From Alphaproteobacteria bacterium (GTDB lineage Bacteria; Pseudomonadota; Alphaproteobacteria; Rhodospirillales; Casp-alpha2): DNA of 64,000 nt. The notes under the pieces are model-generated. The model did not search any database and was not told where the DNA came from. It was given only the letters and a program-made list of their open reading frames with translations. The stretch is taken from contig JAJRRU010000008.1 of the NCBI GenBank assembly GCA_024279135.1, positions 1 to 64,000 of the forward strand, written 5' to 3'. A program made the position numbers and the translations under genes. This document shows, one piece after another, positions 50,207-58,015 of the stretch (position 1 is the stretch's first letter; the number at the start of each line of letters is the position of its first letter).

Positions 50207-50728
50207 ATGGCCGAAGAAACCCAGACGCTCAACTCCCTCGAAGACCTCGGTGCCGCAACCGGCGCCGTTGAAATTTCGGCAGACGACGCCGCGGCAACCG
50301 CTGAAGATGTTACGGTTCCCGTGGAGCCCAAAATTGACGCGCAAGGCCGTTCCTATGCCACCGGCAAGCGTAAAAACGCCATTGCCCGTGTCTGGATCAA
50401 ACCGGGGTCCGGCAAGGTCACCGTCAATGGTCGCGAACAGCTAAGCTATTTCGCCCGTCCCGTTTTGCGCATGTTGATCGACCAGCCGTTTCAGGTAACT
50501 GACCGCGCCGAACAGTACGACGTATGGTGCACGGTTACCGGTGGTGGTCTTTCGGGCCAGGCCGGCGCGGTTCGCCACGGCATCTCGAAGGCACTGACCT
50601 ATTATGAGCCGGGCCTGCGCCCTGCGCTGAAAAAAGCCGGCTTCCTGACCCGTGACTCGCGCGTCGTTGAACGCAAGAAATACGGCAGAGCCAAAGCCCG
50701 CCGGAGCTTCCAGTTCTCCAAACGCTAA
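50207..50728 (+). CDS. rpsI: 30S ribosomal protein S9
   Basis: The 173-residue protein has the S9 core from about residue 46 ([18 protein letters not shown]) to the C-terminal FSKR tail that contacts P-site tRNA. The acidic N-terminal extension of about 45 residues is common in alphaproteobacteria. Its last 24 coding bases, stop included, are repeated exactly at 52014-52037, so an insertion event appears to have happened at this 3' end without changing the protein. Confidence 0.98.
50705..50728 (+). repeat. att-like repeat, copy within rpsI 3' end
   Basis: 24 bases, from the AGCTTC codons to the rpsI stop TAA, identical to 52014-52037 in the same orientation. Confidence 0.9.
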
Positions 50729-50753
50729 TTGGAAACTGCGATATCAAATACGA

Positions 50754-50783
50754 AAAGGGCTGCTTTCGAGCAGCTCTTTTTTT
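50754..50783 (+). terminator. Rho-independent terminator directly after rpsI
   Basis: An 11-bp stem (AAAGGGCTGCT with AGCAGCTCTTT, one wobble) with a TTCG tetraloop is followed by seven T. Confidence 0.92.
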
Positions 50784-50805
50784 GTGCAGTTTCGGATGAA
50801 TCTCG

Positions 50806-50855
50806 GGTGACGGTTTACCTTACTTGTATTATTTAGAGTAAAGTAAACTGTCACC
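50806..50855. repeat. Long inverted repeat in the rpsI-end insertion
   Basis: 19-base arms (GGTGACGGTTTACCTTACT and AGTAAAGTAAACTGTCACC) pair with two wobble-compatible mismatches around a 12-base AT-rich loop. There is no T-run after it. A tandem ACCGTAATTGC lies just downstream (about 50853-50874). It may be a recombinase or regulator binding site. Confidence 0.75.
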
Positions 50856-50934
50856 GTAATTGCACCGTAATTGCTAAAATTAATAGATTGACCCATCATA
50901 CTCTGTGACTAAACATCTAGGACAGGATGGAAAA

Positions 50935-51720
50935 TTATGGGCTTATGGGCTTATGGGTAACTCTTAGATCGTGTATTTCATACATCTCATCGTAGAGACC
51001 CGCTTGAACCAGCACCTTAAACGACCTCTTGAAATCGCTGATGATTTTGGCCTTGTCCGGATGGTTCTTCGAAATCATCGGAGAGCTTAAATTCTCTTGA
51101 ACAGGTGGAAGAAGAACTCGTAGCTTTTCACCAAGAGGTGGCATCATTTTATTTGCCAACTCGATTAGTTGTAGTGGATCACTAATAACGGCATCAAATC
51201 GATCGCCCTTTAACATCGTCAGCAATCTTTTTTCAACCGCTACTTCAATAACTTTGAAACGATGTTTGTTCTTTTTAAAGTTCTCTAAGCCACCTGAGTC
51301 GCGCATGAAACCTATTCGTTTTCCCTCCAAATAATCCATATCGCCAGAGGTCAGTTGTGAAGATTCTAAGGTAACAAAATTGATACTGTCGACTGTTACA
51401 TTCTCCATATATTCAAAGTATGGGTCGAATCCTTCACCTTCCCAAGCCCCTGCAACAAGATCGTATTTTAGACGTTTTGTTTGTTCAATGCATCTAGGCC
51501 ACGGTACAATGTAAACTTCTACGTTGTATCCCGCATGAATGAAGACACGAGTCGTTATATCTGGAACTAGCCCCTTACTGGGCAAATTCTCGCCGCCATA
51601 CTTACCCCATTCCAGATAGCAAATTTTAAGTTTGGGTTTTTCTTCAATTGCATTCGCTTCATCGGAAGACCAGACGAGCAATGCCATAAAGGCAAGGGCG
51701 ATGGTGTATTTCATAAGCAT
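50935..51720 (-). CDS. Orphan solute-binding protein (family 3-like)
   Basis: From ATG 51720 the 261-residue product has a signal peptide (MKYTIALAFMALLVW, cleaved near ANA). The fold resembles extracellular solute-binding proteins of family 3: LKICYLEWGKYGG, GLVPDITTRVF, then YDLVAGAWEGEGFDPYFEYM. No permease or ATPase is adjacent, so it may be an orphan binding protein or sensor. The frame is open from 51819, but the upstream residues would bury the signal peptide. It is AT-richer than the surrounding ribosomal and biosynthetic genes, consistent with transfer, and is the only gene inside the rpsI-flanked insertion. Confidence 0.75.
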   Translation of the reverse strand: MLMKYTIALAFMALLVWSSDEANAIEEKPKLKICYLEWGKYGGENLPSKGLVPDITTRVFIHAGYNVEVYIVPWPRCIEQTKRLKYDLVAGAWEGEGFDPYFEYMENVTVDSINFVTLESSQLTSGDMDYLEGKRIGFMRDSGGLENFKKNKHRFKVIEVAVEKRLLTMLKGDRFDAVISDPLQLIELANKMMPPLGEKLRVLLPPVQENLSSPMISKNHPDKAKIISDFKRSFKVLVQAGLYDEMYEIHDLRVTHKPISP

Positions 51721-52013
51721 ACTATAAATATTCTTTAGGCTGTTGGATAGAAATAAATGGGCTTGTTGTTTGTAAAGAAGCTGTGTCCGAATTTCTGGGC
51801 AACTGGAGGAAATGCACAAGAATGAATCAAAAGCTTACCACCATCTTTGGTGAGTTATGAAATAGGACAATGCTGGCCCCCACAACAAAACATATCAAGG
51901 ACTTAGCGGATTGCGTATGATAGGTAGAGACTAGTCATTAATATCTATCGTCGTAAATTAGTCATAAACAAATTAATATTATTATAGTATCTTGATATTA
52001 CACAATAAAAAAT
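51721..52013. other. AT-rich non-coding end of the rpsI-flanked insertion
   Basis: Upstream region of the binding-protein gene. No ORF with support was found. It contains AT-rich runs near 51950-52012 up to the second att-like repeat. Confidence 0.4.
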
Positions 52014-52037
52014 AGCTTCCAGTTCTCCAAACGCTAA
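52014..52037 (+). repeat. att-like repeat, second copy of rpsI 3' end
   Basis: 24 bases identical to 50705-50728. The matching stop TAA is present although no S9 reading frame leads into it. Confidence 0.9.
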
Positions 52038-52067
52038 GAACGAAGCTACAGAAAATTCAAAATTTTC

Positions 52068-52095
52068 AAGGGTCTGCATTTTTGCAGGCCCTTTT
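52068..52095 (+). terminator. Rho-independent terminator after the second rpsI-end copy
   Basis: An 11-bp stem (AAGGGTCTGCA with TGCAGGCCCTT, one wobble) around TTTT is followed by a short T-run. It is probably the original rpsI terminator, displaced by the insertion. Confidence 0.85.
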
Positions 52096-52149
52096 GTGTC
52101 ACAACTAAGTCACAAGTCCTTGCCAAGGTTTGTTTCGGTTTCGGTGACA

Positions 52150-52322
52150 GGTGGATTGACCTTTCGTGAATCACATTTGATTATGGAGATGGTCACGACA
52201 AAAATCTCGCGACATCCCTTGATCTTGTCGAATTAAATCCGATGATGGGCGATGCCGGGCGGACATCACGTCTATTAATTGACCTGTCGGCCAGCATTTT
52301 AGGCCGCAGCGTACTGGGCTAA
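52150..52322 (+). pseudogene. C-terminal arginase remnant with frameshift
   Basis: Reading 52150 onward gives GGLTFRESHLIMEMV, and switching frame near 52190 gives HDKNLATSLDLVELNP, then GRTSRLLIDLSASILG and a stop at 52320. Joined, these match the last 55-60 residues of arginases (the GGLTxREA and SLDxVExNP signatures). The first three quarters of the gene are absent and the frame is off by a net two bases, so it is dead. The next gene is ornithine cyclodeaminase, which takes the arginase product, so the pair was probably a rocF-ocd arginine degradation operon. The insertion at the rpsI end lies 110 bases upstream. Confidence 0.8.
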
Positions 52323-52344
52323 AACCCTGTAGAATCTGGAGAAT

Positions 52345-53427
52345 ATGATGACCAACCCGATCCCTTCGAAACTCGCCATGGTACCTTTCGTCAGCGTTGA
52401 TAACATGATGAAAATTGTCAACAGCATCGGAATTGAAAAATTGCTAGGTGAATTGGCAATTTATATAGAGGACGATTTCAAACGATGGGAGATTTTTGAT
52501 AAGACCCCACGTGTTGCCGCACATTCCGCAGAAGGGGTCATCGAATTAATGCCCACTTCAGACGGTGAGGTATATGGCTTTAAGTACGTAAACGGTCACC
52601 CGAAAAATCAACAGGAAGGGTTTCAGACTGTTACTGCCTTTGGCGTCCTGGCAAAAGTGTCAAACGGTTACCCGGTGTTATTTTCTGAAATGACGATCCT
52701 GACGGCTTTGCGCACAGCGACCACGTCTGCTCTGGTCGCCAGATATCTCGCCCCGAAAAATTCAAAAACCATGGCGATGATAGGCAATGGTGCGCAGTGC
52801 GAATTTCAGGCGCTCGCTTTCAAAGCCATTTGTGGTATCGATACCGTTAACCTGTACGACATCGATCAAAAAGCAACGGCTAAAGCTGTCAAAAACTTGT
52901 CAGATCAGGGCATCAAGGCAATTGCCTGTTCATCTTCAGAAGAAGCCATGTCAGGCGCCCAGATTATTACGACGTGTACGGCAGATAAACAATATGCCAC
53001 GATTTTGACGGACAACATGGTTGGTTCTGGCGTTCATATTAATGCCATAGGCGGCGATTGCCCTGGCAAGACTGAACTTCATCGCGACATTCTTTTGCGT
53101 TCAGAAATTTTCGTAGAATACCCGCCGCAAACCCGCATTGAAGGTGAAATTCAACAGCTAGACGATGATTACCAGGTTACAGAAATATGGCAGGTTATGA
53201 CCGGCATTGCTGAAGGTCGTCAAAGCGAAAGTCAAATTACCTTGTTTGATAGCGTTGGCTTTGCCATCGAGGACTTCTCTGCCTTGCGATATATTCTTGA
53301 TCAGCTCTCGAGGACTGGAAATTATATTGACCTGGATCTTATTGCGGATCCGGATGATACGCGCGACTTGTTCGGGATGATCCAGCGGGCACAAGATCCA
53401 AGCTCAGGTGTGTCTTCGGCGAGTTAA
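52345..53427 (+). CDS. ocd: Ornithine cyclodeaminase / mu-crystallin family protein
   Basis: The 360-residue protein matches the ornithine cyclodeaminase family: the N-terminal LGELAIYIEDDFKRW, substrate-binding Lys in YGFKYVNGHPKN, the NAD-binding MAMIGNGAQCEFQALAF and the catalytic-type Asp in HINAIGGDCPGKTEL. These enzymes convert ornithine to proline and ammonia using NAD+. The length and NGHPKN suit true ornithine cyclodeaminase. A GGAG ribosome-binding site precedes ATG 52345. The arginase remnant ends 22 bases upstream, so the enzyme may now rely on ornithine from elsewhere. Confidence 0.92.
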   Translation: MMTNPIPSKLAMVPFVSVDNMMKIVNSIGIEKLLGELAIYIEDDFKRWEIFDKTPRVAAHSAEGVIELMPTSDGEVYGFKYVNGHPKNQQEGFQTVTAFGVLAKVSNGYPVLFSEMTILTALRTATTSALVARYLAPKNSKTMAMIGNGAQCEFQALAFKAICGIDTVNLYDIDQKATAKAVKNLSDQGIKAIACSSSEEAMSGAQIITTCTADKQYATILTDNMVGSGVHINAIGGDCPGKTELHRDILLRSEIFVEYPPQTRIEGEIQQLDDDYQVTEIWQVMTGIAEGRQSESQITLFDSVGFAIEDFSALRYILDQLSRTGNYIDLDLIADPDDTRDLFGMIQRAQDPSSGVSSAS

Positions 53428-53638
53428 TAGCAAAAAAGTAGCAAGCCCTTGAAATGAAAGAAATTGCCCGTTAGCATCTGCTATACAGCGTAACACGCGT
53501 GTAGCAGAAACAGCGGTTTTTAATTTGGAGTCCATTACAGTTGAGGTGAGTGCGGGAAAAAAATCTTAAAATCGAATATCTTGAATTTTTCTTGATCACG
53601 TTTGAAATTAAATTCTCGCCAATAATTAACAAGAATTA

Positions 53639-54202
53639 TTGAGTGCTCGAACGGGTATACTTAATAAATTATATTGGAAATTGGTTATGCCGCTGATAAG
53701 TGATGATTACAAAGATTTAAACAGGCTTTTGCATGAATCAAACCCTAACTATGGAACATCTGGATCCAAAAGTGCTAAATTCGTTGTTGAATTAGCAAAC
53801 ACTACGGGATTACGGGATATATTGGATTATGGGTGTGGAAAAGGAACCTTGGGTCAAGTTCTAAACATTGATATCAAGGAATTTGATCCCTGTATTGAAG
53901 GAAAAGATGCGCCCCCACAACCTGCTGATATTGTTGTGTGTACAGATGTACTCGAACATATTGAGCCGAATTGTCTGGAGGATGTTCTAAACGATCTCCA
54001 GCGATTAACAAAGCACACTTTATTGCTTGTCATATCGACCAGACCAGCAATGAAAAAACTGGCTGATGGGCGTAATGCTCACTTGATTATAGAACCAATA
54101 GACTACTGGCTTCCTAAACTAATGTTGCGGTGGGAATTGGATGAATTCAAATCACTCGGTAATTGTTTTAAAATTGTTCTTAACGTTAAAAAATCTGATT
54201 AA
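53639..54202 (+). CDS. SAM-dependent methyltransferase, AT-rich
   Basis: The 187-residue protein has motif I DILDYGCGKGTLGQVL and a post-motif VVCTDVLEHIEP, typical of class I small-molecule methyltransferases. The usual acidic residue after strand 2 is in EFDPCIEG. The substrate is unknown. The best upstream start is TTG 53639; an ATG at 53687 would cut 16 residues. The gene and its 210-base upstream gap are AT-rich compared with neighbours, suggesting transfer. A bidirectional-looking terminator follows. Confidence 0.78.
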   Translation: MSARTGILNKLYWKLVMPLISDDYKDLNRLLHESNPNYGTSGSKSAKFVVELANTTGLRDILDYGCGKGTLGQVLNIDIKEFDPCIEGKDAPPQPADIVVCTDVLEHIEPNCLEDVLNDLQRLTKHTLLLVISTRPAMKKLADGRNAHLIIEPIDYWLPKLMLRWELDEFKSLGNCFKIVLNVKKSD

Positions 54203-54220
54203 ACTATATTTACGAATACG

Positions 54221-54261
54221 AAAAAGGACTACTCCGCGCAATACCGGGGTGGTCATTTTTT
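54221..54261 (+). terminator. Terminator after the methyltransferase gene
   Basis: A 10-bp stem (GACTACTCCG with CGGGGTGGTC, two wobbles) lies between A5 on the left and T6 on the right. Confidence 0.8.
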
Positions 54262-54308
54262 GTCTGTGACATTACGATGCGGGCAAATAACTTGAAAGGG
54301 CCCGGAAC

Positions 54309-54920
54309 ATGAGCGTCGATTTTCTGGTTTTGTCGCTTATTGTGATTGTTGCTCCCGGTACCGGGGTAATCTATACGCTGGGCTGTGGCCTGGCCGGTGG
54401 GGCGCGTTGCAGCATGATTGCCGCTTTCGGCTGCACCATCGGCATCGTTCCCCACCTTGGCGCCACGGTTTTTGGCCTAACCGCCTTGTTGCACGCCAGC
54501 GCCGTGGCCTTCCAGACCGTCAAATTCGCGGGCGTTGCCTATTTGATATACCTGGCCTGGGGCGCACTGCGTGAAAAGACTAGCCACACGGTGGGGCAGG
54601 GCGAACACACGCGTTCCTGGTCGGACGTCATGATCAAAGGCTTCCTGATCAATATTCTCAATCCCAAACTTTCGGTGTTTTTCCTCGCCTTCCTGCCCCA
54701 GTTTATCAACCAGAACGGCACCAGCCCGACGTTTCAAATGTTGACCATGGGAGCCGTATTCATGGCTATGACGCTGATCGTGTTCATCGCTTACGGTATG
54801 TTTGCAGCATCTGTGCGCACCCACGTTATCGCAAGACCTCGGGTGTTAATCTGGTTCCACCGGGCCATCGCCGGCGCTTTTTTCAGCCTCGGCCTCAAAC
54901 TGGCATTTACAGAACGCTGA
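54309..54920 (+). CDS. LysE/RhtB family amino-acid exporter
   Basis: The 203-residue protein has about six membrane segments and the family opening LVLSLIVIVAPGTGVIYTLGCGLAGG plus NPKLSVFFLAFLPQF in the middle. LysE/RhtB transporters export amino acids such as lysine, threonine or homoserine lactones; the substrate is unknown. It is convergent with the YchJ-like gene. Confidence 0.92.
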   Translation: MSVDFLVLSLIVIVAPGTGVIYTLGCGLAGGARCSMIAAFGCTIGIVPHLGATVFGLTALLHASAVAFQTVKFAGVAYLIYLAWGALREKTSHTVGQGEHTRSWSDVMIKGFLINILNPKLSVFFLAFLPQFINQNGTSPTFQMLTMGAVFMAMTLIVFIAYGMFAASVRTHVIARPRVLIWFHRAIAGAFFSLGLKLAFTER

Positions 54921-54967
54921 TCTCTCACGAGCTTTTGTTCAACAGGCGGGATAGACAACCAAACGCG

Positions 54968-55465
54968 TCAGGCTACTGCCCCACAACACTTTTTATACTT
55001 CCTGCCTGAGCCACAGACACAAGGGTCATTGCGACCGACCTTGGCCGAGCTTCGCTGGGGCTGTTTTGGGTTCATCTCGCAGTCTGCAAATACCCATAAG
55101 CCGTCCTGGCGTTTGAATTCGGCCAGTTCATGGTGGGCGATAATATCTTTTTGTACCTTGTAGCGGGCGACGAACTCGACACTGCCGGTCTCATCATCAA
55201 GCCCGCCATCCTCAATCTGACGTATTTCCAGGCCCATCCATTTTGTCTCGCCATGGGACGCGTTGAATTCTTCCAGATCGAAATCCTTACGCTGGTCAAC
55301 AGCCAATGTATCATAGAGATATTGTCCCAGCCCCAGGGAAAAGGCGCTATAGCGCGAGCGCATCAATGCGATGGCGGTGGGCGCCGGTGTGCCGCCGTGA
55401 TAAATACCGCAACAAGATGGCAGATCCTTACCGGAACCACAGGGGCATTGAATAGCGTCAGACAT
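54968..55465 (-). CDS. YchJ family protein with two SEC-C zinc motifs
   Basis: The 165-residue protein carries an N-terminal metal site [13 protein letters not shown] and a C-terminal SEC-C motif [15 protein letters not shown] around a central NTF2-like domain ([19 protein letters not shown]). This is the YchJ/UPF0225 layout; the role is unknown. ATG 55465 ([12 protein letters not shown]) is preferred over the in-frame start at 55486. It diverges from argC. Confidence 0.88.
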
Positions 55466-55617
55466 AATGGGGTTACCTCGAACCAATAAAATGATTTTTC
55501 ATGATCAGGTTCTACCGTCCGGGCTGCCGACAAACAAGGCTATACAACAAACCGGCCTATTTAATTACAAGACGCCCCCATATTATTGCGCTATATACAC
55601 CAGTTCAGGAGAATACC

Positions 55618-56625
55618 ATGACAGCAAAAGTCTTCATCGACGGGCAAGCCGGCACCACAGGGTTACAGATCATCTCCCGTCTGAGCAATCGTGATGACGT
55701 GACCCTATTGAAATTAAACGATCACGAGCGCAAAGACACCGAACGGCGCCGCGAGATGCTGAATTCGGCTGACCTGGTGATATTGTGTCTGCCCGATGAG
55801 GCCGCACGTCAGGCCGTCGCCCTGATCGACAATCCCGCCACCCGGGTTATCGACGCCAGCACCGCACATCGCACCAACCCTGACTGGGTCTATGGAATGC
55901 CGGAATATGAACCCGGCCACGCCAAACGTGTGGCCGCGGCCATGCGGGTTACCAACCCCGGTTGTTATGCCAACGCCTCCATTGCCATTATACACCCCTT
56001 GATCAAGGCCGGCATCCTGCCCGCCGACTGGCCGCTGACCATCAATGCGGTTTCAGGATATTCCGGTGGTGGCAAGGCGATGATTGCTTCGTTTGAAGAC
56101 TCCCAGTCGGCCGATTATACCAGCGAGACGTTCCGCGCCTACGGGTTGACCATGGAGCACAAACACATTCCGGAAATCCAGCGCCGCAGCGGCCTCACAA
56201 CACGCCCGATCCTGATACCCAGTGTGGCGCGTTATCGGCAGGGCATGTTGGTACAGGTACCGTTGCAACTGGATTTCATAACGGGCAAACCCACCATGGG
56301 CGATCTTCACGACGCCTTGGCGAGCCATTATGCAGGGGCCAATTTTATCACCCTCGCAAGCCTGGATGAAACCACGGATATGGGCCAGGTCAACCCCGAG
56401 GCCTTGAACGGAACCGACGAGATGCGCCTGTATGTGTTTGGCAGTCAGACCCATGGACAGGCCGTGATCATGGCGTTGCTGGATAACCTGGGCAAGGGGG
56501 CGTCCGGACAGGCGGTGCAGAATATGAATCTGATGCTGGGTTTTGATGAAACCACAGGCCTGACAACGACCGATGCACCGGGTTTGATCGATCACTTTGA
56601 TGAAGCTGTTTCGACCGGCACATGA
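55618..56625 (+). CDS. argC: N-acetyl-gamma-glutamyl-phosphate reductase (type 2)
   Basis: ArgC reduces N-acetyl-glutamyl phosphate to the semialdehyde in arginine biosynthesis. The 335-residue short-type enzyme begins MTAKVFIDGQAGTTGLQI (NADP-binding) and has the catalytic Cys in VTNPGCYANASI plus HKHIPEI. CAGGAG lies 7 bases before ATG 55618. The frame is open from 55501, but the extra 39 residues are unrelated. Together with ocd and the arginase relic this end of the window is concerned with arginine and ornithine. Confidence 0.95.
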   Translation: MTAKVFIDGQAGTTGLQIISRLSNRDDVTLLKLNDHERKDTERRREMLNSADLVILCLPDEAARQAVALIDNPATRVIDASTAHRTNPDWVYGMPEYEPGHAKRVAAAMRVTNPGCYANASIAIIHPLIKAGILPADWPLTINAVSGYSGGGKAMIASFEDSQSADYTSETFRAYGLTMEHKHIPEIQRRSGLTTRPILIPSVARYRQGMLVQVPLQLDFITGKPTMGDLHDALASHYAGANFITLASLDETTDMGQVNPEALNGTDEMRLYVFGSQTHGQAVIMALLDNLGKGASGQAVQNMNLMLGFDETTGLTTTDAPGLIDHFDEAVSTGT

Positions 56626-56767
56626 AGGGTACATGAATTCGGCAATTTTCATGGCTTCCAAGATCGGCTGGTTCCTGATAGAAGCAGATCAGGTGGCCCC
56701 GATTCTCACATAATTAGGTCTGGACCCGCTGAGCGTGATCTATGAAAACCAAACCGAAAGACCAACA

Positions 56768-58015
56768 ATGCCCCCCCTTAAATGGCAAAATATCCTGTAC
56801 CGAAAACTGGCTGTCCTAGCTTGTACCATGTTTTTTGTCACAGCCCTTTCCCAGGCAACGCAAGCCAAAATCATTGCACCGCCGCCGCCTTTTGCGGCGT
56901 GGCTTGCCGAATTACAGCAAGAAGCCCTGTCCAGCGGCATCAAGGCGAACATCGTGCGAGATGCCCTGAAAGATATCAAACCCATCAAGCGGGTACTTGA
57001 ACTCGACCGCCGCCAGCCTGAATTCAGCCTGACGTTCTGGCGTTACCTGTCAAACACCATCAACGACAAGCGCATCAAACGGGGCAGGCAACTGCTGGTG
57101 GAACATGGCCCGCTGTTGAAAAAAGTGGCACAGAAATACGGTGTACAGCCCCGCTTTCTGGTTGCTTTCTGGGGGCTGGAGACAAATTTCGGACAATACT
57201 TTGGTAAAATTCCGGTTGTCGGCTCGCTGGTCACCCTGGCCCATGACCGGCGCCGGGCAAAATTTTTCCGTGCCCAGCTTCTGGCCGCTCTCGGACTTAT
57301 GAGCGATGGCGACGTATCCATTGATGTGGGCGGATCGTGGGCCGGTGCCATGGGGAATTTTCAGTTTATCCCTACCACGTACCGCGATTTTGCCGTCGAT
57401 GGTGACGGTGATGGCAAACGCGACCTGTGGGGCAATATGAACGATGCCTTTTCCTCGGCCTCCAACTACCTGTCCAAATCAGGCTGGAACGGAAATCGCA
57501 CCTGGGGGCGGGAAGTCCGCCTGCCGAAAGGTTTCGATCTCAACCTGATCGGTCTTGAAAAAAGCCGCAAGCCCCTGAAACAATGGCAGGCCCTGGGTGT
57601 GCGCCGGGCCGATGGTCGGGACTTGCCTGCCGTGGCTATCGAAGGGGCGTTGTTGCTACCGGCCGGACACACCGGCCCAGCCTTCATGGTTTACGCAAAC
57701 TTTGATGCAATAATGACATGGAATCGCTCAGTTTTTTATGCCATAGCCATCGGTCATCTGGCGGACAGGTTAAACGGGCAGGGCGGCCTTTTAACCCCGC
57801 CACCAGCAAAAGAAATCCCCCTGTCGCGCGAAAACGTCATCGAGATCCAGAACACCCTGATCCAGCGCGGTTTCGAAACCGGTGGCGTGGATGGCATGAT
57901 CGGCCCCATGACCCGCGCCTCAATTCGAGCCTGGCAGGCATCGGTCGGACTGCCCGCCGATGGCCATCCATCCATGGATTTGTTGATATCATTACGCAAC
58001 AAGCCCAACAACTAA
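56768..58015 (+). CDS. Lytic murein transglycosylase, MltB type with peptidoglycan-binding domain
   Basis: The 415-residue protein has a signal peptide (ending near ATQA). An SLT-type catalytic domain follows: FLVAFWGLETNFGQYFGK with the catalytic Glu, then GAMGNFQFIPTTYRDFAVD. A C-terminal peptidoglycan-binding domain contains EIQNTLIQRGFETGGVDGMIGP. It cleaves the glycan strand to 1,6-anhydro-MurNAc in the periplasm. ATG 56768 is preferred over GTG 56735 because it starts the signal peptide cleanly. rlpA follows in the same direction. Confidence 0.92.
   Translation: MPPLKWQNILYRKLAVLACTMFFVTALSQATQAKIIAPPPPFAAWLAELQQEALSSGIKANIVRDALKDIKPIKRVLELDRRQPEFSLTFWRYLSNTINDKRIKRGRQLLVEHGPLLKKVAQKYGVQPRFLVAFWGLETNFGQYFGKIPVVGSLVTLAHDRRRAKFFRAQLLAALGLMSDGDVSIDVGGSWAGAMGNFQFIPTTYRDFAVDGDGDGKRDLWGNMNDAFSSASNYLSKSGWNGNRTWGREVRLPKGFDLNLIGLEKSRKPLKQWQALGVRRADGRDLPAVAIEGALLLPAGHTGPAFMVYANFDAIMTWNRSVFYAIAIGHLADRLNGQGGLLTPPPAKEIPLSRENVIEIQNTLIQRGFETGGVDGMIGPMTRASIRAWQASVGLPADGHPSMDLLISLRNKPNN

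Follow-up and report, generated by a model that had tools for sequence, protein, structure and literature searches.

Duplication of the rpsI 3' end in an alphaproteobacterial genome: an integrase-less and possibly tandem insertion at a recurrent integration site

The window analysed here is a stretch of 64,000 nucleotides from an alphaproteobacterial genome, in which rpsI, the gene for ribosomal protein S9, is followed by a second copy of its own 3' end. The last 24 nt of the gene (50705-50728) recur at 52014-52037 with zero mismatches, no S9 frame leads into the second copy, and a terminator hairpin stands behind each of the two (-22.7 and -21.7 kcal/mol, z -4.4 and -4.6). On these three points the preliminary description of the locus was accurate. 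The features are listed from left to right, E1 and E2 denoting the two elements of the arrangement proposed below.

50207-50728, plus strand: rpsI (S9), the target gene, with NCBIfam S9 matches; its last 24 nt are core copy 1
50729-50789, plus strand: native-like rpsI terminator directly behind the stop codon
50806-50875, no strand assigned: REP-like hairpin (fold z -7.0) with an 11-bp tandem pair (50855-50874)
50935-51714, minus strand: SBP-like gene, putative cargo of E1; 259 aa from its ATG, with an N-terminus that looks signal-like by eye
51950-51969, plus strand: P-like arm, a degenerate pair of 11-bp units that ends 47 nt to the left of the core
52014-52037, plus strand: core copy 2, an attP-like or tandem junction
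52038-52122, plus strand: P' arm, the integrase-side end of an element, with linker, terminator and 11-bp tandem pair (52098-52117)
52345-53427, plus strand: ornithine cyclodeaminase gene (NF005762, 565.3 bits; GC 46.7%), probable cargo of E2
53639-54202, plus strand: methyltransferase gene (Methyltransf_23; 37.8% GC), probable cargo of E2
54203-54282, plus strand: second, weakly native-like rpsI-type terminator, presumably the displaced native downstream end; no core precedes it, and GC steps up here

The preliminary description attributed the repeat to site-specific integration at the 3' end of rpsI, and named as evidence to the contrary a 24-mer that is common elsewhere in the genome. Degenerate-pattern scans found exactly two copies of the rpsI tail in the 3.65-Mb assembly. 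The position of the core is that of rpsI-specific islands with a tyrosine integrase; the integrase gene expected of such an island is absent. Between 50729 and 54300, neither an rpsI-type integrase nor a relic of one was detected, with matches at chance level only, so that the insert does lack an integrase as far as this family is concerned. The window's genome gave no match to the integrase of relative G045 at E<=1e-8, nor to that of relative G061 at E<=1e-20. An Rfam search returned 0 matches.

Relatives do carry such integrases at this site. G045 encodes a tyrosine integrase behind rpsI, truncated and below the Pfam cut-off, which is 31% identical to the integrase of G061, itself above the cut-off. 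With the G045 protein as query (E<=1e-8), five of the 48 genomes of the family matched; the integrases of G045 and G061 lie directly behind rpsI, and the other four places in the family (two in G001, the others in G042 and G041) do not. Across the 317 genomes of the order, the G061 integrase retrieved 27 matches in 17 genomes (E<=1e-20). The fetched flanks of six of these loci, including the three best (the best being the query itself), held an S9 tail, recognised by pattern in G061, G309, G217 and G045 and by translation in G123 and G147; those of the other 21 held none. The two loci found by translation (L091 and L108, family f26) have the related integrase near an S9 tail ending in STQFSKR, which the nucleotide patterns miss. 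A scan of public named genomes, with an alignment of the G061, G309, G217 and G045 integrases as query, yielded 16 integrase loci, four of which are the same records as those four genomes. An S9 tail lay directly upstream in 14 of the 16 (12 by pattern, two by translation); the exceptions were L152 and L150, the latter with similar arm-like sequence but lacking the S9 tail. Among the named hosts are Acidocella aminolytica DSM 11237 and Acidocella facilis ATCC 35904. The site is a recurring target of tyrosine integrases within the order and outside it, which supports the site-specific integration proposed in the preliminary description. The 24-mer is the core of the att site of rpsI-specific tyrosine-integrase elements.

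These elements share a layout against which the window can be read. Behind rpsI, the core is typically followed by an AT-rich linker and a terminator, then by a tandem pair with a period of 11 (among others GTCACAA-like and TTCACCA-like) and the integrase gene. At the far end, a pair scoring 8 or 9 of 9 ends 45-52 nt left of the second core in seven of nine second-core sites (G324 has a 7/9 pair at 49 nt, G214 none), and a different, native terminator follows that core; in G222, an argC-like gene comes at once behind this terminator. An 11-bp pair scoring 8 or 9 of 9 stands behind the terminator in G045, G061, G058, G059, G023, G217, G309, G222, G028, G214 and at the window's right copy, a score that random stretches also reach, 190 of 3000 in the window at large and 394 of 3000 inside its low-GC block. 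The repeat test left G022 unflagged though its sequence aligns to the right arm, flagged G011 at period 12 and flagged the window's left flank on account of the REP pair.

Compared with this layout, the window has its polarity reversed, with the native-like terminator on the left, behind rpsI, and the integrase-side P' arm on the right, behind copy 2. Profile searches were run over 109 kb of the window's genome, which was itself left out of the profiles. The P' profile matched 52041-52122 at E 1.1e-14, the next site following at E 0.048. Native profiles matched best at 50732-50789, at E 1.1e-11 with a set of 10 genomes and 2.7e-7 with a set of 32 rows. The 10 are family genomes without arms or integrase, hand-picked with their resemblance to the left flank known, which makes this score partly circular; the 32 rows are those of the family outside the list of armed genomes and take in G006 and G047. 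Pairwise alignment (60 shuffles each) placed the left flank nearest to G002, G016 and G021 (z 17.2, 15.7 and 14.4) and the right flank nearest to G045 and G022 (z 19.1 and 18.6), as against at most 6.0 for three unrelated terminators of the window. The P' arm is 74% identical to that of G045, where this right-type (52068-type) sequence stands between rpsI and the truncated integrase gene. One result counts against the two-element arrangement proposed below: G006 resembles the left and the right flank alike (z 10.5 and 12.8). The TACGAAAA prefix of the native terminator was considered as a genome-generic terminator motif and rejected, with 3 exact matches genome-wide vs 6 for its reversed control.

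This polarity does not support the earlier proposal that copy 2 is an attR with native sequence behind it. Since the right-type sequence is an element's integrase-side arm, copy 2 does not look like a simple attR before displaced native sequence, and 50729-52013 would at most be one portion of a longer block that extends to about 54.2 kb. The prediction that an empty site would read rpsI and then directly the 52068 terminator fared no better, as the native-type relatives G002, G016, G021 and G003 carry the left-type terminator behind rpsI. G022 alone resembles the prediction, with rpsI followed by right-type sequence and no integrase. No empty site was seen in the same genus, where G001 gave no match to the rpsI tail.

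To the left of copy 2, 13 of 20 positions of the P-like pair agree with the P' pair, a level reached by 0.56% of shuffled sequences and by 1.7% of sites drawn at random from the block, and its distance of 47 nt from the core is canonical. With a P-like arm, a core and a P' arm, copy 2 therefore looks like an attP or a tandem junction rather than a plain attR, resembling the P-core-P' arrangement of an excised circle or of the space between tandem elements. An internal junction of this kind, as tandem accretion leaves, is thus present, its P' arm strong and its P arm weak but correctly spaced. Of the N + 1 cores that N elements would leave, the window has two, not three. As regards the flanking att sites that CIMEs retain, cores lie at 50705 and 52014, the left flank is native-like, copy 2 has a P-like and a P' arm, and a third core was not found. 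An inverted repeat (51884-51904 and 52114-52134, 81%) straddles copy 2, one of its arms overlapping the end of the P' repeats.

Base composition also extends beyond copy 2. The segment between the copies had been described as a 1.3-kb AT-rich insert; its low GC is real (39.3% at 50790-52013 vs 51.7% for the window), but the low-GC block does not end where this insert does and runs on beyond copy 2 for another 2.2 kb, to about 54.2 kb. Among all stretches of 3.47 kb in the window, 50764-54233 has the lowest GC (41.7%). The larger genes of this block are the SBP-like, ornithine cyclodeaminase and methyltransferase genes and, as in CIMEs, integrase and conjugation or mobilization genes are lacking. 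A paralogue of the methyltransferase, 40% identical, lies elsewhere on the contig (L002:187-738) and adjoins a Y1_Tnp gene; compared with this paralogue, the end of the methyltransferase gene looks natural.

At the right boundary, 54203-54282 is the second-best site of the native profile (E 6.9e-4 with the 10 genomes, 0.15 with the 32 rows), and its score is not circular. With the 10-genome profile the site after it reaches E 1.3, a minus-strand echo of the first aside. This terminator could simply serve the methyltransferase gene. No third core precedes it, the best ungapped plus-strand match in 52038-57000 having 10 mismatches of 24. From 54309 on, at 53-56% GC, Pfam matches indicate genes of LysE type, YchJ/SEC-C and a semialdehyde dehydrogenase, presumably argC. 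A YchJ/SEC-C gene lies downstream of rpsI in three of 15 family loci and argC in eight of 15. No lysE match was found behind rpsI in any of the 15, which counts against two elements ending at this point; for this reason the native status of lysE is not established.

Within the left part of the block, the preliminary description had recognised an orphan solute-binding-protein gene. It is indeed the single sizeable gene between the core copies, but the match to SBP_bac_3 is below the curated cut-off (E 0.0044). A search of PDB sequences returned one chance match. In the order, 12 of the 317 genomes match the protein at E<=1e-10, its own included, with identities of 37-50% in five other genomes and 20-27% in six more, and none of the 11 loci other than the window's own has att cores beside the homologue. 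The hairpin at 50806-50875 is strong and carries the ACCGTAATTGC tandem unit; it is read as a REP-type sequence inside E1 because the motif recurs at four other fetched places in the genome, one of them just behind an IS200-like Y1_Tnp gene according to Pfam (C17, about 157.9 kb). Its 11-bp pair (50855-50874; 9/9) lies 126 nt behind the rpsI stop codon and agrees with the P pair in 10 of 20 positions, and the left flank offers no match to the P' pair above 10 of 20 either. As this is the sole 11-bp pair there, the left terminator was not accepted as an ordinary P' arm. The pair could be a misjudged arm; taken as the arm of E1, it would strengthen the left half of the single-element reading of the preliminary description. 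Further right, 31 bp at 51877-51907 are 94% like C13:15818-15848, which by eye adjoins a sequence resembling a tRNA 3' end, where ARAGORN finds no tRNA.

Integrase-less insertions at rpsI also occur elsewhere in the order. A 21-base tail search of the 317 genomes matched 205, seven of them with more than one copy. Since genomes with another S9 ending (many in family f26) escape the patterns, counts of duplicated tails are lower bounds. Beside the window, true cases are G222, G028 and G214, three genomes of two other families. The cores of G222 (f28) are 1.71 kb apart and enclose a TumE toxin, an HVO_A0114-type regulator and an unmatched ORF; toxin and regulator lie at L115:4696-5360, and the regulator is probably the antitoxin. 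In G028 (f5) the cores are 1.41 kb apart, with one ORF of 307 aa that has no Pfam match. In G214 (f28), on L116, which holds rpsI and 553 bp downstream, they are 0.55 kb apart, and core and whole terminator are repeated over 85 nt; the end of an element can therefore carry a native-looking terminator. In G222 as in G028, the last codon and the stop codon are not the same in the two cores, from which it follows that the host gene receives its end from the element, and both genomes have P and P' arms well kept. No relic of an rpsI-type integrase was found in these three elements, nor in E1 or E2. Three further candidates were discarded: G057 and G221, each with an additional rpsI gene that has an S9 frame, and G183, in which one rpsI is repeated at the ends of two contigs. 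A guess that C296 of G057 carries an integrase was not borne out.

As the most economical history we favour, at somewhat better than even chances, a decayed tandem of two integrase-less elements accreted at rpsI, the third core having been lost. Each integration would exchange the last bases of rpsI, its stop codon and its terminator for copies carried by the element, and this replacement would therefore keep the gene intact. The block from 50729 to about 54202 would be the decayed remains of both: E1 at 50729-52013, E2 from 52038 to about 54202, and the displaced native end at 54203. Copy 2 would then be the E1/E2 junction, with P arm, core and P' arm, and decay would have removed the P' repeats of E1 as well as the P arm and core at the right end of E2. 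We infer the tandem history, the right boundary and the present immobility of the block; being without an integrase, E1 and E2 should be mobile only with one supplied by another element. By analogy, the block may be called CIME-like, in the sense of those at rpsI in Firmicutes. A plain tandem does not predict the native-looking left end of E1, where P'-like repeats behind rpsI are absent.

That left end could be accounted for if rpsI and its native terminator formed an intact attB, never occupied or emptied again, with an attP-bearing element arriving downstream by another route, or with the left junction overwritten by DNA from an empty site. Both the strongly native-like left terminator and the attP-like pair of arms at copy 2 agree with this. 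We nonetheless consider it unlikely, as it calls for a further joining event, itself unseen, just downstream of the preferred site, and the native-like terminator at 54203 is better explained as a displaced end. Quite unlikely, to our minds, is a reading in which the short units at rpsI (0.55-1.7 kb) are not products of decay alone but satellite cassettes, moved in trans by rpsI-specific integrases and stacking like gene cassettes, the window representing one stack.

The reading of the preliminary description itself, one integrase-less element at 50729-52013 with attL in rpsI, attR at 52014 and native sequence from 52038, draws on the duplicate, on the same layout in G222, G028 and G214, on the element end of G214 with its native-identical terminator and on the right-type sequence of G022. 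It appears distinctly improbable, as the two profile matches make the right flank an integrase-side arm and the left flank a native terminator, the reverse of the canonical order, and low GC persists beyond copy 2. A tail duplication unrelated to an integrase, by slippage or illegitimate repair, has nothing in its favour beyond the missing integrase and is scarcely credible, for an integrase family targets precisely the rpsI tail and agrees with the duplication in site, arms and position, and the P' arm match already speaks against it.

The end of rpsI is thus a recurrent integration site in Alphaproteobacteria, and also in two assemblies labelled Betaproteobacteria and Sterolibacterium. The arm signature marks elements even after loss of the integrase; short integrase-less insertions can therefore be found and their boundaries read.

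In the literature searched, we recognised no rpsI elements in Alphaproteobacteria, those recognisable being all from Firmicutes, and the window seems to add a bacterial group for which no report was found. Where two proteobacterial papers mention rpsI, it serves as a tree marker only (PMC3189940, PMC2764856). In streptococci, rpsI is listed among ICE sites (PMC4701971). Accretion of elements has been described in Firmicutes (PMC5704250, PMC5357655), in the second of these papers with tandems at rpsI, rpmG or rplL. At rpsI of Streptococcus salivarius, CIMEs measuring 1.2-13 kb are reported together with microCIMEs and 16 composite islands (PMC7563491). These CIMEs and accreted CIME-IME/ICE tandems resemble the window in occupying the same gene end, in lacking an integrase, in carrying cargo and in their tandem order. 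The window differs in phylum and in its unrelated cargo; no functional partner element was seen beside the block, the left junction is native-like, and no third core was found.

The rpsI islands described in Macrococcus comprise an integrase, a composite neighbour and a variant without the right repeat (PMC5341023). McRImecD of Macrococcus caseolyticus, with its tyrosine integrase behind rpsI, is similar to the window in having the att core at the rpsI end, a composite neighbour and one variant minus the right repeat. Unlike the window, with its 24 bp and no integrase, this Firmicutes island has repeats of 160-163 bp and a 61-bp core. The island of A. aminolytica DSM 11237 (L148, L159, L160) is different in size, with 28.6 kb between same-strand cores, and in its integrase at the rpsI end, whereas it shares with the window the same core, a P' terminator with an 11-bp pair and a P arm, which in the island ends 45 nt from the second core.
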